Source of the DNA: Ruficoccus sp. ZRK36
GTDB taxonomy: Bacteria > Verrucomicrobiota > Verrucomicrobiia > Opitutales > Cerasicoccaceae
DNA length: 64,000 bases
Assembly (NCBI RefSeq): GCF_019603315.1
Contig: NZ_CP080649.1
Coordinates: 1,193,501 to 1,257,500, forward strand
Direction: 5' to 3'
The position numbers were made by a program, and so were the translations under genes. Under the pieces are notes generated by a model. That model was not told where the DNA came from, ran no database searches, and saw nothing but the letters and a program-made list of their open reading frames with translations. Shown in pieces: positions 2,363-13,915 of the stretch. Positions within the stretch are counted from its first letter, which is position 1. Each line of letters begins with the position of its first letter.

Positions 2363-3226
2363 GTGGAACGCGACCGCCTGACTTCCAGCCACTGCATTTG
2401 GACGCAGCTTGATGTGCTGCTGGTGCGTTACTATGTGGATGTGCCAAGCAGGGTGGGGCGTAAGGGCACTTTTAACGCCCGCTACCTGAGCGCCTGGTAT
2501 ATGAAGCGCGGCAGTGTGACTGTGCGAAAGGATGGGCATGCTCTACGCGCAAGGGCCGGGCAGTGGCTGATCATGGTTCCTGGGCAGCGCTATCAGGAGT
2601 TCACCAGTCATGCTGAGCTGATCTCCATCAACCTTAGCGTAAGCTGCGGAGCGGCCATCCTGTCATGGATGGGGAACTGGGCCTGCGTGCTAAAAGAGGA
2701 CTCACGGCTGCTCGCGCAGGCGGAGGCTCTGGCGTCGGCGTTGCCACCGGTGTCTCCGGGGGAGGATCACGGGTTATCCATACCGGGTGTGAAGATGCCC
2801 CTCCGGCAGGCTGCCGATTGTCAGGCTCGTGTATTGGATTTTTTCAACAGCCTTCTCTTCGTGGCCAGCGAGTGGGGAGTTGGCGTAGACATCCAGTTTG
2901 GAGAGGATGAGCGTGTCCAACGGAGCCTCGCATATATGGCAAGCCGTCCGATGGGGAATAAGTTTTCGCGTGAAGAGGTGGCCGAGGATTGCGGGTTGAG
3001 TGCCAGCCGTCTGGATCGTCACTGGCGCAGGGAGATGGGCATCACGATCAGGCAGTATTGGGACAACCGCCGGATGAACTATGCCTGCCAGTGCCTGCGC
3101 GAGAAAACGAAATCCATCAAGGAAGTCTCAGCGGATCTGGGTTTTTCTCATGCGACCCAGTTCTCGATTTGGTTTTCCAGCCACCAGGGGGTCTCACCCC
3201 GCGCCTACCGTCGCTCGATCGTGTAG
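2363..3226 (+). CDS. AraC family transcriptional regulator
   Basis: A 287-residue one-component regulator. The N-terminal 170 residues look like a cupin sensory domain (GHALRARAGQWLIMVPGQRYQEF), typical of sugar-sensing AraC proteins. The C-terminal 100 residues contain the double HTH: FSREEVAEDCGLSASRLDRHW, then the conserved second helix region SIKEVSADLGFSHATQFSIWF. The start is a GTG at 2363; an in-frame stop at 2354 excludes a longer product. It is divergent from the GH28 gene (165-base shared promoter region), which makes that gene the most probable target. Its 3' end overlaps the convergent LacI-type gene by 33 bases. Confidence 0.9.
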   Translation: MERDRLTSSHCIWTQLDVLLVRYYVDVPSRVGRKGTFNARYLSAWYMKRGSVTVRKDGHALRARAGQWLIMVPGQRYQEFTSHAELISINLSVSCGAAILSWMGNWACVLKEDSRLLAQAEALASALPPVSPGEDHGLSIPGVKMPLRQAADCQARVLDFFNSLLFVASEWGVGVDIQFGEDERVQRSLAYMASRPMGNKFSREEVAEDCGLSASRLDRHWRREMGITIRQYWDNRRMNYACQCLREKTKSIKEVSADLGFSHATQFSIWFSSHQGVSPRAYRRSIV

Positions 3227-4249
3227 CCTGAAGCTCTCGTTTTCCACCCAGTTGCCTTCGAGCAGGAGGCTCGCGGGTTTGGCGGGGATGCCCATCTCAC
3301 CGCGTCGGATCATGGAGACGACCTGGTCCACGGCGGAGGCCGCGATCTGCTCGGCGTCTTCGTCGATACCGGACCAGCCCTCGTTGCGATCGAGCAGGCT
3401 GACGACGGCTATCTTGCACGCGATTTGTGTATCGACTTTCATGGCCTTGAGAAACTCCGGCAGGCGGTAGGGGACGGTCAACAGCCCGTCGGGCTTCACC
3501 TTGTGAAACCACTTCGAGAAGCTGCTTTGGGAAAAGCTGTCGCCGTCAAAGACGGGCAAGGGAGTCAGCTCCGGGGCTTGAGCCAGGCAGGTCAGATAGC
3601 CGGCCAGATAATTATGATCAACGCGGCTGTCATGGAACTGGGGTACGGCAAAGCCGACGCGTTTGCAGCCGATGTCGATCAGCTTCTGCATGCAGAGCCG
3701 GGCGGCATGAAACTGGTGGGTGTTGACGACATGGAAGCGCGGGGATTTGAGCGTGTAGCCGAAGCTCACGCATGAAAAACCGCTGAAGTCGAAGTCGTCG
3801 ATACGCTCGATCCCTCGTGGCTGCGGGCACAGCAGGATGCCCTTGATGCCCCGTGCGAGCATGATCTGCCGTAGCCGTGCTCCGGAGATCTTACTGCGGT
3901 TAAAGTCAAAAACCTGAAGCTGATAGCCGTACTCTTCCGCCTTCTTGATCGCGCCAGCCAGATACGATGGGTAGGGCTTGGGCTTGGGGTTTTCCTCGGT
4001 CAGGTTTCGGTTAATCAGAAAGGCCAGGGTGCCCCGGAAGACGCCGTCGCGTCCATGGTGCTTATAGTGGGCTAGCTGGGAGAGAAAGGGATCGGGCTGG
4101 TAGCCCATTTCCTGGGCGATCTTCTGGATGCGCTCTCGTGTCTTTGCGGCCAGAGCAGGGCTATTACTCATGGCCAGTGATACCGTAGAGGGGTGCACGT
4201 TGGCCGCCTTGGCTATGTCTTTTTGGGTATATTTACGGCCAACACTCAT
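3194..4249 (-). CDS. LacI family transcriptional regulator
   Basis: A 351-residue LacI/GalR-type regulator. The N-terminal HTH is complete: TQKDIAKAANVHPSTVSLAM, followed by the hinge region TRERIQKIAQEMGYQPDPF. The rest is a periplasmic-binding-protein-like effector domain (KGILLCPQPRGIERIDDF; CKRVGFAVPQF). The insertion after the hinge (FLSQLAHYKHHGR...) is seen in LacI proteins of Opitutae and Planctomycetes. The gene is divergent from the dehydrogenase (4317) and convergent with the AraC gene, overlapping its end by 33 bases. It probably controls the dehydrogenase and lipoprotein genes to its right; the effector is unknown, with a sugar the family default. Confidence 0.9.
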   Translation of the reverse strand: MSVGRKYTQKDIAKAANVHPSTVSLAMSNSPALAAKTRERIQKIAQEMGYQPDPFLSQLAHYKHHGRDGVFRGTLAFLINRNLTEENPKPKPYPSYLAGAIKKAEEYGYQLQVFDFNRSKISGARLRQIMLARGIKGILLCPQPRGIERIDDFDFSGFSCVSFGYTLKSPRFHVVNTHQFHAARLCMQKLIDIGCKRVGFAVPQFHDSRVDHNYLAGYLTCLAQAPELTPLPVFDGDSFSQSSFSKWFHKVKPDGLLTVPYRLPEFLKAMKVDTQIACKIAVVSLLDRNEGWSGIDEDAEQIAASAVDQVVSMIRRGEMGIPAKPASLLLEGNWVENESFRLHDRATVGAG

Positions 4250-4316
4250 CAGCTACCTTGGTTTGTTGATCGGGGGATATTCAGGACGGCAACAAGCCAT
4301 GAAAGGTGCGGCAATC

Positions 4317-5417
4317 ATGGATGTATTCATGCGCATGAATTTCGTACCAATTGCCGTATCCACCTACAATGATAAAAACGAGGTATTGAACACCTCAACA
4401 TACTCCCCCGTCCGGGCCGCGACTGACCGGCAAGCCCCCGTATTTGCATTTATCCCGAGCGAAGCCGAAGACTTTTACCCGCCACAGTTACGGGGAAAAG
4501 CTATGGCTAACTTTCAGCATGGGATCTGGACGAACCCCGAGGAGGCGCCGGATGGCCTGCTTGAGTCCGCGCAGGTACTCGTCGGGGCCTGGCGCCTGCG
4601 CGACATCCCGCTTGAGTTCCTGAAGAGCCGCGGGGGTAACCTGGAGTACCTCTGCCTGCTGGTGGGCTCTCCCAAGCGAGCGATCACCCGCAAGCACCTT
4701 GAGGAGGGGCTGTTGGTCTCGAACTGGGGAAATATCTGCAGCCCGGTTGTTGCAGAGGGGGCGCTGGCATTGATCCTTTCGCGCCTTCGTGATACCCACT
4801 GGCACCACGACGAGCTGGTGAAGCATGGCGTGTGGAACAACATGTCTCCGAGGTCGGTCACGTTGATTGGCAAGCGCGTTGCGATTCACGGCTTTGGTAA
4901 TCTGGCCCGCGCCCTGATTGAGCTGATCAAGCCGTTTAAGGTTCAGCTCTCAGTCCATGCTCCCGGCGTTCCTGTGGAGCTGATCGAGGCCGTGGGGGCT
5001 CGCCCGGTGGACTCACTGGTGAGCCTTGCTGAGGATTGTGATGTCTTTGTCGAGATGGAGGCCCTGCGCCCCGATAACTATAAATGCATCAACCGCCAAG
5101 TGCTGTCGCATCTCCCGAAGGGGGCACTGTTTGTCAACGTGGGGCGCGGTGCACTGGTGGATGAAGAGGACCTGGTCGAGGTTGCCCGTGAGCGCGAGTT
5201 AAAGGTCGCTCTGGATGTATACCAGCAGGAGCCGTTGGAGCATGGTGCGCCCGTGCTGAGTATTCCGGATGGACTTTTTATGCCGCACACCTCCGGGCCG
5301 ACAAAAGATTCGCGGCATATCTGCGGAGCACTAGGCTTACAGAATCTCAGCCGCTACTACAGTGGGCAAAAGCCTCTGTATGTAGTCGGTCCCGAGGATT
5401 TCGACCGTATGACCTAA
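4317..5417 (+). CDS. D-isomer-specific 2-hydroxyacid dehydrogenase
   Basis: NAD(P)-dependent oxidoreductase of the phosphoglycerate dehydrogenase/glyoxylate reductase superfamily. The cofactor-binding Rossmann motif reads GKRVAIHGFGNLARALIE. The catalytic triad positions are visible: Arg in NVGRGALVDEEDL, Glu in the ALDVYQQEP segment, and His in FMPHTSGP. I chose the ATG at 4317 because an AAGGTG Shine-Dalgarno lies 8 bases upstream; ATGs at 4299 and 4329 are possible. Longer readings overlap the divergent LacI gene and have no family similarity. The gene sits between the LacI regulator and the lipoprotein gene and may handle an acidic sugar product of uronate catabolism. That role is inferred from context. 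Confidence 0.85.
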   Translation: MDVFMRMNFVPIAVSTYNDKNEVLNTSTYSPVRAATDRQAPVFAFIPSEAEDFYPPQLRGKAMANFQHGIWTNPEEAPDGLLESAQVLVGAWRLRDIPLEFLKSRGGNLEYLCLLVGSPKRAITRKHLEEGLLVSNWGNICSPVVAEGALALILSRLRDTHWHHDELVKHGVWNNMSPRSVTLIGKRVAIHGFGNLARALIELIKPFKVQLSVHAPGVPVELIEAVGARPVDSLVSLAEDCDVFVEMEALRPDNYKCINRQVLSHLPKGALFVNVGRGALVDEEDLVEVARERELKVALDVYQQEPLEHGAPVLSIPDGLFMPHTSGPTKDSRHICGALGLQNLSRYYSGQKPLYVVGPEDFDRMT

Positions 5418-5450: not shown

Positions 5451-6881
5451 ATGCTTTTACTGCCCATTTTACCTCGTCAGATTTTATACCCCATGCGCTT
5501 TCTATTATCCATCCCCCTGTTTGCTCTGTGCTGCTGTTTCACGTCCTGTGAAAAACCATCTCCTGAGCCGCACGCATCCGCTTCTGTTGTGGCATCCGCA
5601 GATACCGTATCTCAGTCTGCTGAGACTCTTTTGCCTCCCGCTGTCCTCGAAAAGGCGCTGACCTATTCGGCTCCCTATTGGGAGTTTCGCCCCAACAAGC
5701 GCTCGCATCACCTCAATCACACCTTTGGTTTTTACACGCTCTGCCTGGAGGCCTATCTGGAGCAGAAGCAGGGGAGTACCCCTGAGCCGTGGCTGGTCGA
5801 GGCGGTGACTTCGCGGTTGCGCTCCGTGCTCGCCGGTGGATCCGAGCCTGAGTGCCAGGGCGGGCTGGGAGGTTGGTCGCATGGCGCCTTTGCCTGGTCG
5901 CTGGGGTATATCCGTAACACACCTGCCGTGTGGGATGCTCTCAGTGCTGAGGAGCAGGGTAAGGCGAACCTGTTGATGCAGGCGCTGGCTGTCGCCGCTT
6001 CTTTCACGCTGGATGATGACAATGACTACCGTACGCTGCTGGACGGGTGCAGGAACTACGGCAAGAGGTGGAACCCCAACCACGTTGAGGGCTATGTGGC
6101 CGCGGGGATGGCGGCTGCCTGGTACTTCGGAGTGGATGATCTTAACGACCGTCTGGTGAATTTCGACTTCGACACCTTCGTAGAGCAGCTACGTGAAGCC
6201 GGTTTTACAAATATCGTTGGCAGCTGGACACATACTCCCGCTACCCGCCAGGCCCTCATGCATGGCGGAGTCTATAAAGGCGAGGATGCCGCGGCGAAGT
6301 ATGGAAAAGGGGCCGGTGTGCACGGCAATACGTTTACCTATCTTGGGCTGAGCTTGGATCAGGATTGGGAGATCTATAAGAAGCTGGCCTCGCGCATGTA
6401 CTCCCATACGGCGCGCACCGAGATCCCGGTGACTAACAAGGAAGGTCTCTACACGCATATTTTGACCAAGGGTGATGACGGCCATTTCCTGATCTCGCCC
6501 TATGATGGGCGCTACGGTATGTGCTACGAGTTCGAGACAACGAATGCGGTGAAGAACGACTCGCCGTTTCGGAGCTCACTCTCCTACGTGTACGAAGGCT
6601 GGATGAATAACATGGCGACGGCGGCAGCCGTTCGGGCCCGTGGTCATTGGAACCCCGAGGGTAAAGAGGGCAGGGAGCTGATGGGTGCCATCTATGTGGG
6701 GAGCGAGGACTTTCTCTATAAGGCCAAGTATGGATACTGGGGCTTTGCCAATGGTGAGGCAAAAATCGTCACCTTGGCCGACCTGACCGATAAACCCCGC
6801 GGTTGGCCCTTTGTGCTAGCTTGGTGGGAGTCGATGATTAAGCCGGTGGTGACTCCTGCAGGGAGTGCGTTGGAGGAGTAA
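5451..6881 (+). CDS. Predicted lipoprotein of unrecognised family (paralogue of the C-terminal half of the 10437 protein)
   Basis: A 476-residue exported protein. The segment MRFLLSIPLFALCCCFTSC is a lipoprotein signal with Cys about residue 33 as the lipidation site, followed by a Ser/Ala/Pro linker to about residue 65. From there to the end is one domain of about 400 residues, rich in alternating helices and aromatics, which resembles an alpha/alpha toroid only by impression. It shares long blocks with the protein at 10437: EPECQGGLGGWSHG, DDDNDYR, WNPNHVEGYV, AAWYFGVD, GFTNIV, GLYTHIL and FLISPY. The invariant His, Asn, Asp, Tyr and Trp residues fit a carbohydrate-active site but I cannot name a family. 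AAGGCGG precedes the ATG at 5451; the ATG at 5493 would give a tidier signal peptide. It lies 33 bases after the dehydrogenase gene, probably co-transcribed. Confidence 0.8.
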   Translation: MLLLPILPRQILYPMRFLLSIPLFALCCCFTSCEKPSPEPHASASVVASADTVSQSAETLLPPAVLEKALTYSAPYWEFRPNKRSHHLNHTFGFYTLCLEAYLEQKQGSTPEPWLVEAVTSRLRSVLAGGSEPECQGGLGGWSHGAFAWSLGYIRNTPAVWDALSAEEQGKANLLMQALAVAASFTLDDDNDYRTLLDGCRNYGKRWNPNHVEGYVAAGMAAAWYFGVDDLNDRLVNFDFDTFVEQLREAGFTNIVGSWTHTPATRQALMHGGVYKGEDAAAKYGKGAGVHGNTFTYLGLSLDQDWEIYKKLASRMYSHTARTEIPVTNKEGLYTHILTKGDDGHFLISPYDGRYGMCYEFETTNAVKNDSPFRSSLSYVYEGWMNNMATAAAVRARGHWNPEGKEGRELMGAIYVGSEDFLYKAKYGYWGFANGEAKIVTLADLTDKPRGWPFVLAWWESMIKPVVTPAGSALEE

Positions 6882-7108
6882 TGCCGAGCTTCGGCCTGTG
6901 CCGTAGGTCTTCATTATCCTTCGTATTATGATGCTATTGGGATGTTTTTTATCTTTTGTGTAGACGGGCGAGTCAGGTTGGTGGATGGTTTTATATTCGT
7001 TTGTTGTTTCTGCTTTTAAAGCTGACGCTGACCCCTCTTCACAACGGATTTCATCTGCATGAAATTTGGTGCCCTTGCAGTGTCGCTCCCCGAATGTAGG
7101 TTGTGCTC

Positions 7109-7825
7109 ATGACATTCTACTACCCCGTGTCTACCTCATCTCGTCGTACTTCTGCCCCTCCGAAATATCGATGGCTCCCCGCAGGAGGGTTTTCGCTGGT
7201 AGAGCTATTATCCGTCATCGCGGTGTTGGCCGTATTGGTATGTCTGTTGGTTCCCGTTATATCGTCGATGCGGATCCGTGCCAGCTCGACGACTAGTGCT
7301 AGTAATTTGAGAGCTATTGGTGTGGCGATGCATATGTATATGCAGGAGCATCAGGGGTACCTGCCGGGCCCTATTATAAATGGCCAAAGACCCTTCTACG
7401 GGACGCATCCCAGCCTCGACCGCAATCTTCCTAATTTTCTTTATCCGTACATGGGCTTACCCGAGCCAAGAGAGAGAGTCATCCTGATGGAGGCTTTTAC
7501 CTTCCCGGAGTATCTTACCCATGATCCAGACATGACCGGGCCTGTGTACTTTGCTACGAGTTCATTAACCTTCGGCGGGCGCAGGAAAAACCCGTGGGGC
7601 TACGCGAGCAGCGATCCTGCCAAGGTCGGGAGCCCCTCGATGCTCATGTACGAGACGGACGTCGATGCCTCCACGGCCATGCTGCTGACCGAAATCGACC
7701 AACAATCACCTTTAATCAATGGCTCGCAGGGCTGGTCTAGCGTGCTGCCTGAAAAGCCGTATCACGGCGATATCCGCAACCAACTCTATCTGGACGGCTC
7801 GGTCAGAGCTGTCGATGTCGAATAA
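7109..7825 (+). CDS. Type II secretion/pseudopilin-like protein with H-x9-DG C-terminal motif
   Basis: A 238-residue prepilin. After a 28-residue leader, the peptidase site and methylation motif GGFSLVELLSVIAVLAVLVCL form the classic N-terminal hydrophobic helix with the +5 Glu. The region RASSTTSASNLRAIGVAMHMY matches the 'SNLRQIG.A...Y' stretch of verrucomicrobial and planctomycetal pseudopilins. Near the end, HGDIRNQLYLDG fits the H-x9-DG motif exactly. An ATG at 7109 is preferred over the GTG at 7103. The protein is expected to be processed by a type IV prepilin peptidase (not in the window) and exposed on the cell surface. It lies 24 bases before the PEP-CTERM gene and in the middle of the glycan-degradation cluster. 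Confidence 0.88.
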   Translation: MTFYYPVSTSSRRTSAPPKYRWLPAGGFSLVELLSVIAVLAVLVCLLVPVISSMRIRASSTTSASNLRAIGVAMHMYMQEHQGYLPGPIINGQRPFYGTHPSLDRNLPNFLYPYMGLPEPRERVILMEAFTFPEYLTHDPDMTGPVYFATSSLTFGGRRKNPWGYASSDPAKVGSPSMLMYETDVDASTAMLLTEIDQQSPLINGSQGWSSVLPEKPYHGDIRNQLYLDGSVRAVDVE

Positions 7826-7848
7826 CGCAAACCCCAAGCACTCATAAT

Positions 7849-8670
7849 ATGAAAAAGATCGTACACGCATGCCTCATAACTTCTCTGCTTACAGCTTCTT
7901 CGGTGCTGTCAGCTCAGACTATTTTTTCGGATAACTTCAACTCAGGAGGCTTCAGCGGCTATGATGTGACCCCGACGGTCTCAGACGAGAATCGTGGAGT
8001 CGTAATCGTTGATGAAGAAAGTACGCCCGCCAATCCGTTCTCCGGTAATGCCGCCCGGGTCTACGACTTGTCGACAGCATCAGTCTTTCTCGAAAATGAC
8101 TACACGAGTACGGCTTCCACTCAGCTCGTGCAGCTTTTCACCTTCGATGCGGCTTTGGCTGTTGGCTCCAGCACGACGGACGGCGTCTTAAGCTTCCGGC
8201 TGACGAATGAAGGGGGCAGCACAAGCAGTAAGGATAACTGTGTCTTTGATATCCAGCTGCGTCAGACTGGCGTGTTCTATGTCTACGGAGCCACGAGCAA
8301 TGGGTTCAGTAACGTCATGGACACGAGCGGCGTGAACATCGCCGTGTACACCAACAGCAGTACATCATCCATCACCCTGACGGATATGGCCAGCAACGAG
8401 CTGACGCTGGGGGCCAGAGAGTTTGCCGTCTATATCGATGGTGAAAACAAGGGGATATGGGGATTCCGGACGGGCAGCACCTACGATCCCACCGAGGGTA
8501 TCGGCCGTTTCGGATTCGTCAGTAGCTCAAGCGCGACAGGAAGCGACGTCATCATCGATAATATCGAGATTTCAGCCATTCCAGAGGCTTCGACCTCTGC
8601 GCTCATGATGGGGGCTGCTATCGCCATGTTCCTGATGGGCCGCAAGCGTTTCACGAAGAGCGCGCAGTAA
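7849..8670 (+). CDS. PEP-CTERM sorting domain protein
   Basis: A 273-residue secreted, probably surface-anchored protein. It has an N-terminal signal peptide (MKKIVHACLITSLLTASSVLSA), a beta-rich ectodomain resembling a concanavalin-like sandwich (opening IFSDNFNSGGFSGYD), and a C-terminal tripartite anchor: IPEAS, a hydrophobic stretch, and a basic tail GRKRFTKSAQ. The motif is IPE rather than VPEP, within the variation of PEP-CTERM anchors. An exosortase would be needed for sorting; none is in this window. Residues 20 to 250 are clearly homologous to the N-terminal 260 residues of the 10437 protein (STQLVQLF, VYGATS, VYTNSST, IDNIE). The role is unknown; glycan binding is a reasonable guess from fold and neighbours. 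Confidence 0.85.
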   Translation: MKKIVHACLITSLLTASSVLSAQTIFSDNFNSGGFSGYDVTPTVSDENRGVVIVDEESTPANPFSGNAARVYDLSTASVFLENDYTSTASTQLVQLFTFDAALAVGSSTTDGVLSFRLTNEGGSTSSKDNCVFDIQLRQTGVFYVYGATSNGFSNVMDTSGVNIAVYTNSSTSSITLTDMASNELTLGAREFAVYIDGENKGIWGFRTGSTYDPTEGIGRFGFVSSSSATGSDVIIDNIEISAIPEASTSALMMGAAIAMFLMGRKRFTKSAQ

Positions 8671-8721
8671 GCGCGGTCTCAGATTCAGCGTTTAGATAGA
8701 AACAGTCAGATCTTTCTTCAT

Positions 8722-10119
8722 ATGCTCCCTACTCATCAGTTGCTTGGGGCTGTCGCCTCGGCTTGCCTTGTTGCGTGTCTTGGACAGGCCGGGGCGGCAG
8801 AAATTAGCGTGGATACGGCTGGGGCACTGCAGTCTGCAGTGTCTCAGGCGGCTCCCGGCGATGTCATTATTGTCGCACCGGGCGAATACAAGCAGACCTT
8901 GCGGCTGAAGGGGCGCGGAACCGAAGAGGCCAGAGTCACCGTGCGTGCGGAGAGTCCGGGGGAAGTGACGCTGAACGCGCCCGTACTGCTCACGGGCACA
9001 TACCTCAGCCTGGAGGGGTTCGACTTCGGCGAAAAGAGTCGCCTGGAGTTCACCGAGGGGACAGGGCACCGCGTGTGGGGTTGCCGCTTCGATGCTCTTC
9101 AGGCGGGGCACTGGGTGCGGTTCAACGACGAGGCCACGCACTGCGAGATCGGGTATTGCTCATTCACCAACGACAACAACGCCGGGGAAAAGAGCAATCA
9201 GCAGATCGTGCAGATCAAGCGGAGCGATGCCACCGGGCCTGATTATCATCGTATCCACCACAACTACTTCGCGAATGTCTCCCCGGGTGAAACGAACAAC
9301 GGCTTTGAGACCATCCAGGTTCATCAGGGGACGGTCGGGGCGCTGGGCAGCTCACATACCGTTATCGAGAAAAACGTGTTTGAGGCCTGCAATGGCGAGG
9401 CCGAGATGATCTCCATCAAGTGCTCGGATAATGTCATCCGCGATAACCTGATCATTGCCTGTCGTGGGAGCATCGTGCTGCGTAAGGGGACGGGAAACCT
9501 CGTCGAAGGTAATGTCTTCATCGGTGATCATGGCAAGGGCACGGGCGGTGTCCGTTTTCGCGGGGATGATCAGGTCGTGATCAATAACTTTTTCTACCAG
9601 CTCGCCTACAGTGCGATAGCTTTGCACAACGGTGATGCGGGCAACTACTATGAGCCTGTGACCCGGGCGACCGTGGCCTTTAACACGATCGTGGACTGCG
9701 GGCGTGTGCTCAATATCGGCATCCGTCACCCGAAGCATGACTCCAGCATTCTGCCGACGGGGGTCGTCTTCGCTAACAACATCATCGTGGGAGTGGGCGC
9801 ACAGATTTATGATCCGGATGGCGCGATGTCTACCTGGACGCTTGAGGGAAACATCGCCTATGGCATGTCCCCCGAGCTTATCACCTTGCCTGGGTTTACG
9901 GTTGTTGATCCCGAGCTTGTTTTACTGTCATCGGGCATTCTCGCCCCAGCAGAGGGCAGCCCGGCGATTGGCCAGGCGCAGGGAGACTTTCCGCAGGTGA
10001 CTATCGATATCTTTGGTAATCCGCGCCCCGAAACGGGCAAGACGATTGGCGCTGTCGAGCAGGCCGTACCCGAGCTGCCCGTGTCGCGCAGCATGGTTGG
10101 CCCCAACGCTCTCCCGTAA
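8722..10119 (+). CDS. Polysaccharide lyase family 6 (alginate lyase/chondroitinase B-like)
   Basis: A 465-residue exported right-handed beta-helix lyase that cleaves uronate-containing polysaccharides by beta-elimination. A signal peptide ends near GQAGA (residue 26). The family opening GALQSAVSQAAPGDVIIVAPG is present. The catalytic region is intact: NGEAEMISIKCSDNVIRDN carries the Lys base of PL6, and GTGGVRFRGDDQVVINNFF carries the Arg acid. The Ca-binding acidic residues of chondroitinase B lie in the same stretch (Asn-Gly-Glu-Ala-Glu). Substrate cannot be read directly; alginate or poly-MG is the commonest PL6 substrate, dermatan sulfate the alternative. It follows the PEP-CTERM gene by 51 bases and precedes the fusion gene. 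There is no visible surface anchor, so it is probably periplasmic or released. Confidence 0.9.
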   Translation: MLPTHQLLGAVASACLVACLGQAGAAEISVDTAGALQSAVSQAAPGDVIIVAPGEYKQTLRLKGRGTEEARVTVRAESPGEVTLNAPVLLTGTYLSLEGFDFGEKSRLEFTEGTGHRVWGCRFDALQAGHWVRFNDEATHCEIGYCSFTNDNNAGEKSNQQIVQIKRSDATGPDYHRIHHNYFANVSPGETNNGFETIQVHQGTVGALGSSHTVIEKNVFEACNGEAEMISIKCSDNVIRDNLIIACRGSIVLRKGTGNLVEGNVFIGDHGKGTGGVRFRGDDQVVINNFFYQLAYSAIALHNGDAGNYYEPVTRATVAFNTIVDCGRVLNIGIRHPKHDSSILPTGVVFANNIIVGVGAQIYDPDGAMSTWTLEGNIAYGMSPELITLPGFTVVDPELVLLSSGILAPAEGSPAIGQAQGDFPQVTIDIFGNPRPETGKTIGAVEQAVPELPVSRSMVGPNALP

Positions 10120-10436
10120 GATATCTAAGGATCGAGGCCCCACTATGTGCGATGCCGCGGTGGCGGGAGCTTTTCTCCTGCCGTATCATCATGTGCAGTT
10201 CAGGAGTCCGTGCGTTGTGTTGGCGTTGGCTCTGGTAGTTGCAGATTCATCAGCATGAGTTTCGGGCCGATTGTCTTTTATCAGATCCCGATACTAGAGT
10301 TCGTGCATGGTGAGAGATCGTTATCGTCTGTGCGCTGTAGCAAGCGCATCTCGTCGATAGTGGGAGGCTTACAGGGCTTTGTTTTCGGGTGTGGACTTGG
10401 GTGTTTGTTTTTCAATCAACCCCCAATCCAAGAATC
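10120..10436 (+). other. Intergenic region upstream of the fusion gene
   Basis: This 317-base gap between the PL6 lyase and the fusion gene has no convincing ORF; an in-frame extension of the fusion gene from 10389 lacks coding character. I see no terminator hairpin with a T-tract. Its length suggests the fusion gene has its own promoter, but no strong -35/-10 pair stands out. Confidence 0.35.
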
Positions 10437-12425
10437 ATGATGAAGTTACTATGTTTGATTACCCTCGTTGCATCCGCCTTTGTTTCCACTGTCAGCCTGA
10501 GAGCCCACATCCTCTATGCGGATGATTTTTCTTCGGCTGATTTGAGCGGATATAATGCCTCTCCCAGCACAGGCACCGCGGATAACGGAGCGCAACTCGT
10601 CGATGTTCAGGCGCTTCTACCGAACTCATTATCGGCGAATGCCGTCCGGCTTTATGATCTCAGTTCCAGTGCTGCGACATCCTTTACGAAAGACTATTCA
10701 GTCATCGCCTCGACGCAGTTGGTCCAGTTGTTTCAGTTCAATGTCGCGCTGTCCGATGATACGTCGAGCGCGGGCGTGTTCAGTTTCCGTGTGGCGAACC
10801 CTGGAGGGAACATAAGCTCGAAGTACAACTGCCCCTTTGATGTGCAGCTGCGGATGTCCAACGGTACGATCTATGTCTACGGGGCGACCAGTGCTGGCTA
10901 TATCAACAAGCTCAATGCTGATGGCACTTTGATCTCGGTCTATACCAACAGCAGCACCGACACCGTGGTGATCGAGAACACCGTGGTGATCGAGAACACT
11001 GTGGTGGGAGGCACACTGACGCTGGAGGCGAATCACTTCGCGGTCTATGCCGGCGGAGCTCTGCTGGGGATATTTGAATACCTCACCAACTCAAGCTTCG
11101 TGCCCGCCAATGGTATCGGTCTGTTCGGGTTCACCAGTGCCAGCACCAGCAATGGCGGCGATATCATGATCGATAACATCGAGGTCATCAGCATTCCGGA
11201 GACATACGCGCTTCCCGCAGGCATCATGGAGGAGGCGCTTCACCTGGAGGCTCCGTATTGGCAGTTCCAGCCTGCACAGCGCTCTCACAAACTTGGTGAG
11301 ACCCATGCGCTCTACGCCCTCTGCCTGGAGGCGTACCTGGAGCAGGAGAATGGCCGCACACCGTACCCTCGGCTGGTGGAGATCATCCACGAGCGCTTCC
11401 GCTCCGTGATGGCCGGAGGTAATGAGCCGGAGTGTCAGGGCGGGCTGGGTGGTTGGTCGCATGGCCCCTTTGCCTGGTCGCTGGCATTCGCGCGCAGGAC
11501 ACCGCAGGTCTGGTCTGCCTTCAGCGCCAGTGATAAGGCCAAGGCGGACCTGCTGATGGAGGCGCTGGCTGTGGCCGCTTCTTTTACCCTGGAGGATGAT
11601 AACGACTACCGCGTGACGGCGGAGGGCGACCGAAATACCCGCAAGACGTGGAACCCGAACCACGTCGAGGGCTATGTGGGAGTGGCGCTGGCTGCGGCCT
11701 GGTACTTTGGCGTCGATGAGCTGAATGCCCGGCTCGTGGGCTTTGACTTTGATCCCTTCGTGCAGGATCTGAGCGCGGCAGGCTTTACAAACATCGTCGA
11801 TTGCTGGACCTATACTCCGGCCACAAAGGTGGCCTTTATGCAAGGAGGGCCCTTTATCGGTGAAGATCCAACTCTGGACTATGGAACGGGGCTTGGTGTG
11901 CGCGGCAACCATTTCACCTATAACGGCTATGAGCTTGATCAGGTCTGGGCCATTTATCTCGGGCTGGCTGAGCGGATGTTTGCACATACCGCGCAGACTG
12001 AGCATGCCGTCACGGGGATCAGCGGTCTCTATACGCACATTCTGGAGACGGATGCTATGGGAGATTTCCTGATCTCTCCCTACGAGGGCCAGGACGGCAT
12101 GTGTATGGAGTTTAAAAGCAGTAACGAGGTACTGAATGGAAGCAGCTTTCGCAGCTCACTCCACTATGTCTTCAGCGGCTTGATGCTCAACATGACCAAC
12201 GCGGTCGGCGTCTGGGCGAGCGGTGAATGGAACGCAAACGGAAGCGATATATCCGTGCTGGAGGCAAAGATGAATGTGGGGATGAACGACTTTTTCTATA
12301 AGGCTGAGCACGGCTATCTGAGCTTTGCGATGGGCGAGTCGCACGAGGAGGATTTTTTTACTGTGCAGGAGACCTTCAGCGTCTGGAACTTCGTGTCCTG
12401 CTGGTGGGCCTGCGTGAGTGGGTGA
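10437..12425 (+). CDS. Two-domain secreted protein: PEP-CTERM-type ectodomain fused to lipoprotein-type domain
   Basis: A 662-residue exported protein starting at MMKLLCLITLVASAFVSTVS (signal peptide). Residues 25 to about 260 are a paralogue of the ectodomain at 7849 (DDFSSADLSGYN, STQLVQLFQF, VYGATS, IDNIE). At the position where that protein begins its IPE anchor, this one reads ISIPETYALPAGIMEEAL and continues directly into about 400 residues that are a paralogue of the lipoprotein at 5451 (EPECQGGLGGWSHG, DDNDYR, WNPNHVEGYV, GFTNIV, GLYTHIL). The hydrophobic anchor is therefore replaced by a second domain, so the product should be soluble and secreted or periplasmic. An 18-base in-frame duplication lies in the first domain. 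The chemistry is unknown; the fusion supports a joint function of the two families, with binding plus catalysis the simplest model. Confidence 0.85.
   Translation: MMKLLCLITLVASAFVSTVSLRAHILYADDFSSADLSGYNASPSTGTADNGAQLVDVQALLPNSLSANAVRLYDLSSSAATSFTKDYSVIASTQLVQLFQFNVALSDDTSSAGVFSFRVANPGGNISSKYNCPFDVQLRMSNGTIYVYGATSAGYINKLNADGTLISVYTNSSTDTVVIENTVVIENTVVGGTLTLEANHFAVYAGGALLGIFEYLTNSSFVPANGIGLFGFTSASTSNGGDIMIDNIEVISIPETYALPAGIMEEALHLEAPYWQFQPAQRSHKLGETHALYALCLEAYLEQENGRTPYPRLVEIIHERFRSVMAGGNEPECQGGLGGWSHGPFAWSLAFARRTPQVWSAFSASDKAKADLLMEALAVAASFTLEDDNDYRVTAEGDRNTRKTWNPNHVEGYVGVALAAAWYFGVDELNARLVGFDFDPFVQDLSAAGFTNIVDCWTYTPATKVAFMQGGPFIGEDPTLDYGTGLGVRGNHFTYNGYELDQVWAIYLGLAERMFAHTAQTEHAVTGISGLYTHILETDAMGDFLISPYEGQDGMCMEFKSSNEVLNGSSFRSSLHYVFSGLMLNMTNAVGVWASGEWNANGSDISVLEAKMNVGMNDFFYKAEHGYLSFAMGESHEEDFFTVQETFSVWNFVSCWWACVSG
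10961..11006 (+). repeat. In-frame 18-bp tandem duplication within the fusion gene
   Basis: The unit CACCGTGGTGATCGAGAA occurs at 10961-10978 and again at 10979-10996, followed by a partial third copy (CACTGTGGTG, 10997-11006). It encodes a repeated TVVIEN. The paralogue at 7849 has no such repeat, so this is a recent slippage insertion in a surface loop. Confidence 0.9.
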
Positions 12426-12608
12426 ACCGTCCGCCTCGAGGTGAACTCAGGGTGTCGTGGTTGCTTTCGTTGGGGGCTGTGGCAAACACTAGAAGTCACT
12501 AGGATTTCTGTCCATTCGGGGCAATTTCAGGCAATCTGCATCTCCCTCGAAAAAGTCGAATTTTCGGTTCAACTGCCTATTTATCAGTAAATTAGGCTTG
12601 AAATATAA

Positions 12609-12683
12609 TGGTGCGGGCGGAGGGAGTCGAACCCTCGTCTCAAGCTTGGGAAGCTCACATAATAGCCGTTATACGACGCCCGC
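12609..12683 (-). tRNA. tRNA-Gly (anticodon CCC)
   Basis: The minus strand folds into a standard cloverleaf of 72 nt plus CCA. The acceptor stem GCGGGCG pairs with CGCCCGC, the T arm contains GGTTCGACTCC, and the anticodon stem TGAGC/GCTTG closes the loop TTCCCAA, giving anticodon CCC (Gly, GGG codons). The discriminator is A and the 3' CCA is encoded. The 3' end faces the carbohydrate island to the left, the orientation at which mobile islands usually integrate, although no integrase or attachment repeat is visible. Confidence 0.93.
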
Positions 12684-12928
12684 ATTTTACGGCTCAAAAC
12701 GACAACATAGTGATCGCGGCCTATCTGTAAAGGGCGATTGCGGCCCGTGTGAAAGAAATGCAATGGCATGCGGCTGGGGGTGTCGTTGATGATTTGCGTA
12801 AAAAAAATGCTAAGCGGGGCTATTAAAAACCCTTGTTTGAGACGGCTTTAAGACTGGCCAAGGCGGGGGGCGATCGGTAGGCTAGCGGCTTGATTTTAGC
12901 TCCTGCGGAGCATGGATACAGACGCTTT

Positions 12929-13915
12929 ATGAAGGTAAAGTTTTGGGGCACACAAGGATCATTACCGGCCAGCGTGAACGAGGAAACCGTTCGCGCAAAG
13001 GTGTTTATGGCCCTACAGGCGTCCCAGGGCTACACACTGGATTCTGCTGAGGCCATCGATGCCTTCATCGATAAAGAGCTGCCCTTCAGCGTGCGGGGCA
13101 CCTACGGGACGAACACCTCCTGTGTGCAGTTGGAGAATCCGGACGGCGATATGGTCATCCTGGATGCGGGCTCAGGCCTACGGGATCTGGGGCTGTCTCT
13201 GGTGCGCAGTGGCCAGGCGCGAAAGCCCACGACCTACCACTTCGTGATGAGCCACCTGCACTGGGATCACCTTCAGGGATTCCCGTTTTTTGTCCCGGCT
13301 TTTGTACCTGGGAACCGGATCGTCATTCACAGTTATCACCCGCAGGCCGAGGAGTGCTTCCGGCGGCAGATGTCGGGACAGTTTTTCCCCATCGAGTTCG
13401 ATCAGCTCTCGGCGGATATCAGCTTTGAGATCCGGGAGCCGTGTACGCCCTTTGAGCTGGCAGGGTTTCAGGTGAGCAGTGTGGTCCAGAATCACCCTGG
13501 TACCTCCTATGGCTATCGTTTTGAAAAGGATGGCAAGGTCCTGGTGTACTCGACGGATTCGGAGCACAAGCACGACGCCTACGAGGAGAATTATCCCTTT
13601 GTTGATTTCATCCGCGGGGCGGATTTGCTGATTTTTGACGCGCAGTACACGATGGCCGATGCCACCTTTACGAAAGCGAACTGGGGCCACTCCAGTAATG
13701 TGATCGGGGTGGAGCTGGCTGCACGCGCTCGTGTCCGCAACCTGGTGATTTTCCACCACGAGCCGACGAGTAGCGACGCGGAGTTGGAAGAATTTCTTTT
13801 CAACACGCGCATGTACTGCAATATTTACCATCAGGAAGCGGGCAGCAAACTCGGCCACGAGCGCTACCCCGAAAAGATTCTTCTCGCCTATGACGGGCTT
13901 GAGATGGACATATAG
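12929..13915 (+). CDS. MBL-fold metallo-hydrolase
   Basis: A 328-residue cytoplasmic metallo-beta-lactamase-fold hydrolase. The N-terminus MKVKFWGTQGSLPAS is typical of the phosphodiesterase/PhnP-RNase Z-like branch. Metal ligands are visible in order: MSHLHWDHLQGFPFF (the HxHxDH motif), His in VVQNHPGTSYGY, Asp in YSTDSEHKH, and His in VIFHHEPTSS. I start at the ATG at 12929 because the family N-terminus begins there; the upstream TTG at 12890 adds unrelated residues. Its stop codon is immediately followed by the ATG of the exonuclease (TAGATG), so the two are translationally linked. The substrate is unknown; a cyclic nucleotide or nucleic acid phosphodiester is the family expectation. Confidence 0.85.
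   Translation: MKVKFWGTQGSLPASVNEETVRAKVFMALQASQGYTLDSAEAIDAFIDKELPFSVRGTYGTNTSCVQLENPDGDMVILDAGSGLRDLGLSLVRSGQARKPTTYHFVMSHLHWDHLQGFPFFVPAFVPGNRIVIHSYHPQAEECFRRQMSGQFFPIEFDQLSADISFEIREPCTPFELAGFQVSSVVQNHPGTSYGYRFEKDGKVLVYSTDSEHKHDAYEENYPFVDFIRGADLLIFDAQYTMADATFTKANWGHSSNVIGVELAARARVRNLVIFHHEPTSSDAELEEFLFNTRMYCNIYHQEAGSKLGHERYPEKILLAYDGLEMDI

Follow-up and report, generated by a model that had tools for sequence, protein, structure and literature searches.

A duplicated, plausibly exported domain of Ruficoccus sp. ZRK36 as a candidate family of toroid carbohydrate-active enzymes

In toroid lyases that neutralize the substrate carboxylate with an Asn, the catalytic Tyr lies 53-63 residues after that Asn and a His takes part, according to Table 4 of PMC12088678; for polysaccharide lyase (PL) family 38, PMC13169297 proposes His243 and Tyr298 as the catalytic pair. 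A different arrangement is proposed for the β-D-glucuronate dehydratase of glycoside hydrolase (GH) family 154, for which PMC12269599 names Tyr229, Arg285 and Tyr289 as the likely catalytic residues. Here we examine how these enzymes compare with two genes in a 64,000-nucleotide stretch of the Ruficoccus sp. ZRK36 genome (contig NZ_CP080649.1, positions 1,193,501 to 1,257,500), hereafter the window. The products of these genes, named after their start positions as the 5451 and 10437 proteins, share a domain that an earlier note, made from the sequence alone, had put forward as a new carbohydrate-active family. The phylum concerned, Verrucomicrobiota, has members that specialize on sulfated and acidic polysaccharides.

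Our analysis shows that the domain represents a real protein family that has no name yet, and indicates that it is most likely a toroid carbohydrate-active enzyme. As to its chemistry, our leading but tentative view, held at slightly less than even confidence, is that the two genes belong to an unnamed family of exported (α/α) toroid enzymes that act by β-elimination or dehydration of uronates. If this activity is confirmed, a carbohydrate-active family would be added that the searched libraries miss, with invariant residues that are concrete targets for mutation, and with domain fusions and gene loci that narrow the substrate. The family would also stand beside GH154 as a further candidate for a toroid that may carry out β-elimination without a catalytic His.

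The duplicated domain and its conserved residues

The two proteins and the main features of the shared domain are listed below by window position; all lie on the plus strand. Residue numbers are those of the 5451 protein, except in the second copy, and numbers within the isolated domain are lower by 60.

5451-6881, +: stand-alone copy, a putative lipoprotein followed by the predicted toroid domain (476 residues; likely lipobox Cys at 5547-5549, by eye)
5631-6878, +: predicted toroid domain of the 5451 protein, residues 61-476
5844-5864, +: motif EPECQGG, residues 132-138 (Gly137 and Gly138 invariant)
6015-6017, +: Asp189, invariant
6072-6092, +: motif NPNHVEG, residues 208-214 (Asn208, Asn210 and Gly214 invariant; His211 not)
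6528-6533, +: Glu360-Phe361, both invariant
6570-6587, +: Arg374 to Tyr379 (Arg-x4-Tyr), both invariant; putative charge-neutralizing and acid/base residues
10437-12425, +: fusion protein, with a signal, an N-terminal domain like a PEP-CTERM protein and the predicted toroid domain (662 residues from the ATG)
10437-11210, +: N-terminal part of the fusion
11211-12422, +: second predicted toroid domain, which keeps all residues invariant in the family alignment
11652-11672, +: NPNHVEG motif of the second copy, residues 406-412, from the gapless alignment with the 5451 protein
12150-12167, +: Arg572 to Tyr577 of the second copy, from the same gapless alignment

Residues 61-459 of the 5451 protein align without a gap to residues 259-657 of the 10437 protein, and 232 of these 399 positions are identical (58%; E 4e-167 in a single comparison). 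The paralogy of the 5451 domain and the C-terminal half of 10437, claimed in the earlier note, is therefore far above chance, and the five conserved blocks quoted there, including DDNDYR, WNPNHVEGYV, GLYTHIL and FLISPY, are indeed present in both copies. In the Ruficoccus genome (3.76 Mb, 98.6% complete), these two copies are the sole matches to the domain at E up to 1. The export signals that had been noted are also seen by eye: the 5451 protein has an N-terminal hydrophobic stretch ending in a lipobox-like FTSC-E, and the 10437 protein has a Sec-like signal at its start. Export of both proteins is thus plausible, and the family as a whole is probably exported. The 10437 open reading frame (ORF) would encode 678 residues if an upstream GTG at 10389 were taken as the start.

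An alignment of 22 family members defines the residues that are invariant in all of them, namely Ala69, Gly137, Gly138, Trp161, Asp189, Asn208, Asn210, Gly214, Pro350, Gly353, Gly356, Glu360, Phe361, Arg374, Tyr379, Gly417, Asp420, Gly428, Tyr429 and Trp459. Arg374 and Tyr379 stand 130-169 residues past Asn210, and the first invariant Tyr is found 135-169 residues past the Asn. GLYTHIL and FLISPY are not conserved deep in the family and recur in similar form only in the four members nearest the window.

The statement that no known enzyme family can be assigned holds for Pfam of 2025, NCBIfam of 2026 and the PDB sequences of 2026, none of which gave a usable match. For both whole window proteins, all Pfam hits stayed below the cut-off of their family, the best being Mucin on the low-complexity linker of the 5451 protein (16.6 bits, cut-off 34.7), and a Pfam scan of 10 family members gave a best E of only 0.074. 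The Pfam hits below cut-off (Mucin, HEPN_AbiV, RNA ligase, DUF1285_N and others) concerned one member each and were dismissed as chance. NCBIfam gave no match at E up to 1, and the PDB sequences gave none at E up to 10, whether they were searched with a single sequence (phmmer) or with a 10-member profile. PF05426 was not among the five families matched by any of the 10 members at E up to 10. Likewise, neither the window proteins nor the 10 members matched PF10022 (DUF2264/GH154), PF07470 (GH88/GH105), PF03663 (GH76), or PF16889 and PF07940 (heparinase II/III), and PF10022 had no match in the Ruficoccus genome at E up to 0.001. The family was not found in a literature search, which does not prove its absence from print.

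Predicted fold and likeness to known toroid enzymes

The window domain was modeled with AlphaFold from a 10-sequence alignment, giving a mean predicted local distance difference test score (pLDDT) of 79.9 and a predicted template-modeling score (pTM) of 0.87. A second model, led by the domain of a Microbacteriaceae member that is 26-27% identical, has a mean pLDDT of 65.5 and a pTM of 0.76. The window-domain model consists of a single, mainly helical domain. In fold comparisons with VIA, GH105 is the top row for both models, with Z of 11.2 for the window model and 12.5 for the Microbacteriaceae model; it is followed, in the same order of models, by PL35 (9o3q; 11.1 and 11.8), PL38 (10.5 and 11.0), GH76 (10.1 and 10.9), PL17 (9.9 and 10.5), PL15 (9.9 and 10.2) and the GH154 dehydratase (8.8 and 10.1). 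Apart from PL15, these alignments span 241-257 residues at a root-mean-square deviation of 4.2-5.5 Å. All 50 rows shown of the first list are sugar enzymes by title, and we take all of them to be of the toroid type; the second list holds mostly sugar enzymes, but TehA channels, complement C3 chains and a designed repeat appear there too, with Z between 7.8 and 9.0. Among viral structures, Foldseek found no match at E up to 0.001.

The case for an (α/α) toroid fold, resting on predicted models, is thus good but not conclusive, and the label of a toroid carbohydrate-active domain is well supported. Because GH105 and GH76 score level with PL35 and PL38, a lyase cannot be told from a hydrolase by fold, and the modeled fold favors no one family over another. 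Of the lyase with a toroid fold that the earlier note suggested as a possibility, it is therefore the toroid that is retained, as predicted in both models. Profile and fold searches of the kind suggested there revealed a likeness to toroid sugar enzymes with VIA, and no significant family match with Foldseek or hhalign.

The described systems share different aspects with this family. The GH154/DUF2264 dehydratase (BcGDH, PDB 9O4U) is a toroid of similar length, and its proposed catalytic Arg285, Tyr289 and Tyr229 may have counterparts in the invariant Arg374, Tyr379 and Tyr429, if we judge by sequence alone. However, there is no detectable sequence kinship (hhalign 0.5%), the Arg-Tyr spacing is four in GH154 (Arg-x3-Tyr) and five in the family (Arg-x4-Tyr), and the Asn-x-Asn motif is a feature of the family. 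DUF2264 is linked to GH154 by one of its members, for which the solved enzymes 8OI4 and 9O4U came up as matches. The PL5/PL38-type alginate lyases (PF05426) likewise have one toroid or barrel domain, with an Asn motif at a helix start that reads NNH there and NPNH in the family; they differ in that hhalign gives 0.6%, that the His is not conserved in the family, and that no aligned Tyr is found at about +55 from the Asn/His site. In the alignment with PL5, which is not significant, WNPNH falls on the NNH motif, a coincidence that we do not count as proof. For PL35, PL15 and PL17, the likeness concerns the toroid part; these enzymes have a second, antiparallel β-sheet domain, as described in PMC12088678, whereas the window domain is single and mainly helical. 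Lastly, the GH105/GH88 unsaturated uronyl hydrolases and the GH76 mannanases are alike in toroid fold, no counterpart of their catalytic Asp being apparent, and hhalign gives 0.1% for each of GH88 and GH76.

Relatives, gene context and candidate chemistry

Relatives of the domain are real but sparse. A scan of genome contigs yielded eight related loci (L003-L010), seven in Verrucomicrobiota and one in Microbacteriaceae, the latter being the only known carrier outside the phylum. Among sampled relatives of the Ruficoccus genome, the family occurs in 5 of 88 genomes, including its own, and two of these five are among four genomes of the genus. The counts for the phylum (at least 12 of 387 genomes) and, with a wider profile, for the class (at least 12 of 384), both including the Ruficoccus genome, are lower bounds, as up to four candidates were scored per genome; some hits in sampled genomes are on the same contigs as the loci of the contig scan (L003/G001, L009/G085). 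No copy was found in 50,697 phage records (window-domain query, E up to 0.01) or, with three queries, in 72,556 plasmid records, and two scans of viral contigs gave 15 stretches and one stretch that matched the pattern, none of which was confirmed. In a tree of the 22 members, both window copies form a clade with L003 and L011; a second clade is of Opitutaceae type, and there is a distant set in which the Microbacteriaceae member sits on a long branch, its placement being unsure. Several relatives are fused to other domains. In L010 the partner is a carbohydrate-binding module (CBM) of family CBM96 (117 bits), whose founding module binds alginate according to PMC9971899. L018 and L020 combine the toroid with a sialidase-like BNR_2 domain in one protein of about 800 residues (58.7 and 58.3 bits, cut-off 31.4), and L023 and L024 have a sialidase-like CBM below cut-off, together with an SH3 domain.

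The gene context was assessed for 21 loci (the window, L003-L010 and L030-L041), with 145 neighbors scanned in bulk. Families were listed as the best 25 of 87 for 78 proteins and the best 25 of 109 for 67 proteins, so that "none seen" here does not mean "none there". Clear glycan-degradation genes are found near 9 of the 21 loci:

Window: GH28, PL6-type
L003: sulfatase, heparinase-II/III-like lyase, UxuA
L010: AXE1
L030: GH3, AXE1, PL6 and GH28 homologues
L031: sulfatase
L035: Melibiase (33.5 bits, cut-off 27)
L036: end of a sulfatase homologue (BLAST)
L039: GH106
L041: polysaccharide deacetylase

Another nine loci (L004-L009 and L032-L034) have weak or indirect glycan context. In L004, the gene at 11442-13637 has a GH42 match below cut-off (18 bits, cut-off 21) and BLAST homologues in L005-L009; in L032, an MGH1-like gene below cut-off has BLAST homologues in L033 and L034. 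Among the matches listed for 78 neighbors of eight loci, 2-hydroxyacid dehydrogenase, AP_endonuc_2 and Gfo/Idh occur four times each; DegT, asparaginase, LacI, DHDPS and epimerase three times each; and sulfatase, SSF, MR_MLE, Amidohydro_2, CinA, PhyH and FG-GAP twice each. These 78 were taken from about 127 called proteins, after exclusion of the domain genes and of ORFs that were short, cut or overlapping. The control consisted of 78 proteins drawn at random from 143 called (at least 200 residues) on 11 stretches of six genomes; among the matches listed for it (best 25 of 111), the leading families were ABC_tran (4), MacB, FtsX and AAA_21 (3 each) and short-chain dehydrogenases (2), with Gfo/Idh at 2 and SSF at 1. 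The recurring neighbor families are thus mostly sugar and sugar-acid genes, unlike the control, although the control is not locus-matched and related loci are counted repeatedly, so that the comparison is suggestive and not an enrichment test. Among the matches listed for the 67 neighbors of the other 11 loci there is no such recurrence, and sigma factors, peptidases, ABC and kinase domains lead their list; the sugar-acid signal is therefore due to the marine clade, together with part of the Opitutaceae clade.

The GH154-like Arg/Tyr/Tyr set and the uronate-rich context of the marine copies lead us to favor β-elimination or dehydration of a uronate over hydrolysis. In this scheme the substrate would be a uronic-acid-bearing glycan or its oligosaccharides, and the invariant polar residues, to judge from sequence and secondary structure, would come together at the mouth of the toroid. 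The negative charge of the uronate carboxylate would be neutralized by Asn208/Asn210 and Arg374, and Tyr379, with Tyr429 or Glu360, would take the C5 proton and protonate the leaving group. That is, either the bond would be cut by β-elimination, or a terminal uronate would lose water, as in the GH154 glucuronate dehydratase. The lipid-anchored copy would act at the cell envelope next to a PL6-type enzyme, and its product would pass to sugar-acid enzymes, such as the 2-hydroxyacid dehydrogenase here, UxuA in L003, and elsewhere the products of epimerase-, DHDPS- and enolase-type genes. A further-reaching version, which we consider rather unlikely, is that of a new family of polysaccharide lyases or uronate dehydratases in which a toroid bears an active site free of His (with Asn-x-Asn, Arg-x4-Tyr, a second Tyr and Glu). 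Scattered Verrucomicrobiota and at least one actinobacterium would use it on a class of substrates outside the reach of all known families of carbohydrate-active enzymes, perhaps uronates that are amidated or otherwise substituted.

A number of results weigh against a β-eliminating toroid enzyme. Foldseek returned no significant match in the PDB (best E 0.22), with an unsaturated glucuronyl hydrolase and GH76 enzymes making up its first four rows (E 0.22-0.34); the Z values obtained with VIA are of a size that helical models can reach without kinship, and GH families score there as high as PL families. In the window model, pLDDT falls below 50 in the loop that holds Asp189 and in one after Glu360. 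Profiles of PL5-like, heparinase-N, GH88, GH76 and GH154 (DUF2264) proteins were built from sampled genomes, plus a second PF05426 set, and hhalign of the family against these six profiles gave no more than 0.9% for the whole domain in local mode, 1.24% in global mode and 1.75% for the N-terminal half, all three being the values for heparinase-N; the C-terminal part alone, with the Arg/Tyr region, gave at most 0.24%. In calibration, PL5 found heparinase-N at 96.5% and GH88 found GH76 at 87.8%, whereas GH154 gave 15.3% with PL5 and just 1.2% with heparinase-N, and hhalign is therefore weak as a negative for remote kinship. No His is invariant: His211 is His in 14 of the 22 members and otherwise Ile, Phe or Tyr, and His144 is His in 16. 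Nor is there an aligned Tyr 53-63 residues after the Asn, scattered ones occurring in some of the 22. Thus, of the toroid-lyase scheme, the Asn is invariant across the 22 members, the His is not, and the Tyr is absent at the expected distance, although Tyr379 may fill its role from another position. In L021 and L022 the ORF seems to begin at the domain, with no export signal by eye. Among the matches listed, no glycan gene was seen in three of the 21 loci (L037, L038, L040), and eight relatives lie near asparaginase-type (L031, L035, L036) or M20-type homologues (L004, L006, L007, L009, L032), a recurring amide chemistry that a plain polysaccharide lyase leaves unexplained.

These results also revise the earlier note in part. 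Because no His is invariant, its conserved His/Asn/Asp/Tyr/Trp set becomes one of Asn, Asp, Glu, Arg, Tyr and Trp. The new carbohydrate-active family survives as an unrecognized domain with a predicted toroid and glycan-type fusions, having lost its basis in a conserved His and, as far as the fold goes, any preference for a lyase over a hydrolase; the glycan-locus setting holds for the 9 loci with a clear glycan gene, against three in which none was seen, and eight loci carry asparaginase- or M20-type homologues.

Other activities can be weighed against the same evidence. The main rival, possible though on balance doubtful, is that the domain is a toroid glycoside hydrolase or an unsaturated uronyl hydrolase like those of GH88/GH105, in which Asp189 and Glu360 would form an acid/base pair near the ends of the inner helices, and the bond would be hydrolyzed or the enol ether hydrated. 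The leading place of GH105 for both models, with GH76 close behind, is consistent with this, as is the invariance of Asp189, Glu360 and Asp420. Moreover, the Ruficoccus genome has no PF07470 match at E up to 0.001, leaving the GH88 role vacant (21 of 39 genomes scanned for GH88 are likewise without a match), and the two members without a visible signal peptide would suit an intracellular oligosaccharide enzyme. Yet the profile values of the family with GH88 and GH76 are negligible although these two recognize each other, and the invariant Asn-x-Asn, Arg and two Tyr exceed a hydrolase's needs. The same Asn-x-Asn, Arg and Tyr residues belong to the eight invariant polar or charged residues that suggest a catalytic site, being kept down to 21% identity, in both copies and in two phyla; we therefore consider it very unlikely that the domain is a non-catalytic surface module for glycan binding or scaffolding, even if one copy is lipoprotein-like and the other is joined to most of a PEP-CTERM-type protein, its body. 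A toroid sugar epimerase or isomerase, like cellobiose 2-epimerase, mannose isomerase or dermatan sulfate epimerase, is more improbable still. Cellobiose 2-epimerase does reach Z 9.0 and 10.6 in VIA, and dermatan sulfate epimerase 10.7 in the second list, but such enzymes use a catalytic His, and the family has no invariant one.

The amide-related neighbors raise another alternative, namely an enzyme for small sugar acids that are amidated or bear amino acids, and not for polysaccharide. The toroid would act on an imported or periplasmic glycoconjugate; a neighboring M20- or asparaginase-type enzyme would remove its amide, and aldolase- and dehydrogenase-type enzymes would degrade the remainder. 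Asparaginase homologues directly adjoin the domain gene in L031, L035 and L036 (three Pfam matches), and M20 homologues do so in L004, L006, L007 and L009 and lie a few genes off in L032, with a Pfam match for L004 only. In addition, seven loci carry homologous epimerase-type genes (Pfam match seen for L004), and seven carry a second homologous gene of about 350 residues that we read as DHDPS-type; 3 of the 78 neighbors match DHDPS, their identities not being given, and the L004 copy of the 350-residue gene matched nothing. However, such loci all fall in one clade (genome family f14 or records grouped with it by the tree), and the marine-clade copies, including those of the window, have lyase, sulfatase and GH neighbors instead. 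We thus judge this alternative unlikely, and retain β-elimination or dehydration of a uronate as the tentative chemistry.

Two groups of neighboring proteins deserve mention in their own right. In six loci, the next gene downstream of the toroid gene is the L004 gene at 11442-13637 or a BLAST homologue of it, encoding about 570-840 residues; one copy was scanned, and the protein is possibly a further unrecognized glycosidase. The proteins encoded at 11757-13181 in L033 and 12357-13790 in L034 look related, have about 475 residues and are enolase-superfamily-like by eye; for the L033 protein, Pfam gave nothing at E up to 1.

The fused copy and the surrounding block

The genes around the two copies in the window are the following:

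1013-2278, -: GH28-type protein (60.5 bits)
2363-3226, +: AraC-type regulator (library scan)
3194-4249, -: LacI-type regulator (library scan)
4128-5417, +: D-2-hydroxyacid dehydrogenase-like protein (120.3 bits), with homologues in four other loci (L003, L030, L033, L034)
7103-7825, +: prepilin-like exported protein, also represented by homologues at L030 and L003
7849-8670, +: PEP-CTERM-type exported protein (PEP-CTERM match below cut-off), homologous to the N-terminal half of the fusion protein
8722-10119, +: PL6-type (Chondroitinas_B) β-helix protein (158.5 bits)

The PL6 and GH28 enzymes that had been named as neighbors are therefore confirmed. Between the 7849 protein and the N-terminal part of the 10437 protein, 115 of 264 aligned columns are identical (44%), so that this part is a diverged copy of its neighbor, and the likeness ends just past an IPE motif; the toroid domain takes over where the PEP-CTERM tail starts in 7849. 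In the fusion, the enzyme-like domain thus appears to have replaced a sorting tail. A like order of genes (dehydrogenase, toroid, prepilin-like, PEP-CTERM-type protein, PL6 homologue) is found in L030, in a genome with a single toroid match. Given this order and the position of the junction, recombination between two genes of one block is the probable origin of the fusion. In the tree, the fused copy falls outside 5451, L011 and L003, with weak support (82/65). The PL6 homologue of L030 (3673-5097) is called as two ORFs of 347 and 126 residues, and is perhaps a broken gene.

The 18 kb directly upstream of the window (L029) encode three sulfatases, a GH3 and a fucose/arabinose-isomerase-like gene, and the glycan region thus extends past the window. 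L029 also encodes an 804-residue protein that matched no Pfam family at E up to 0.0001. The Ruficoccus genome has seven matches to PF05426 (alginate-lyase family), three strong and four near the cut-off, which, together with its GH88 content, leaves the substrate unfixed. A tRNA-Gly (ccc) gene lies at 12609-12683 on the minus strand, just beyond the last gene of the block, and may have served as the integration site of an island with a patchy distribution.

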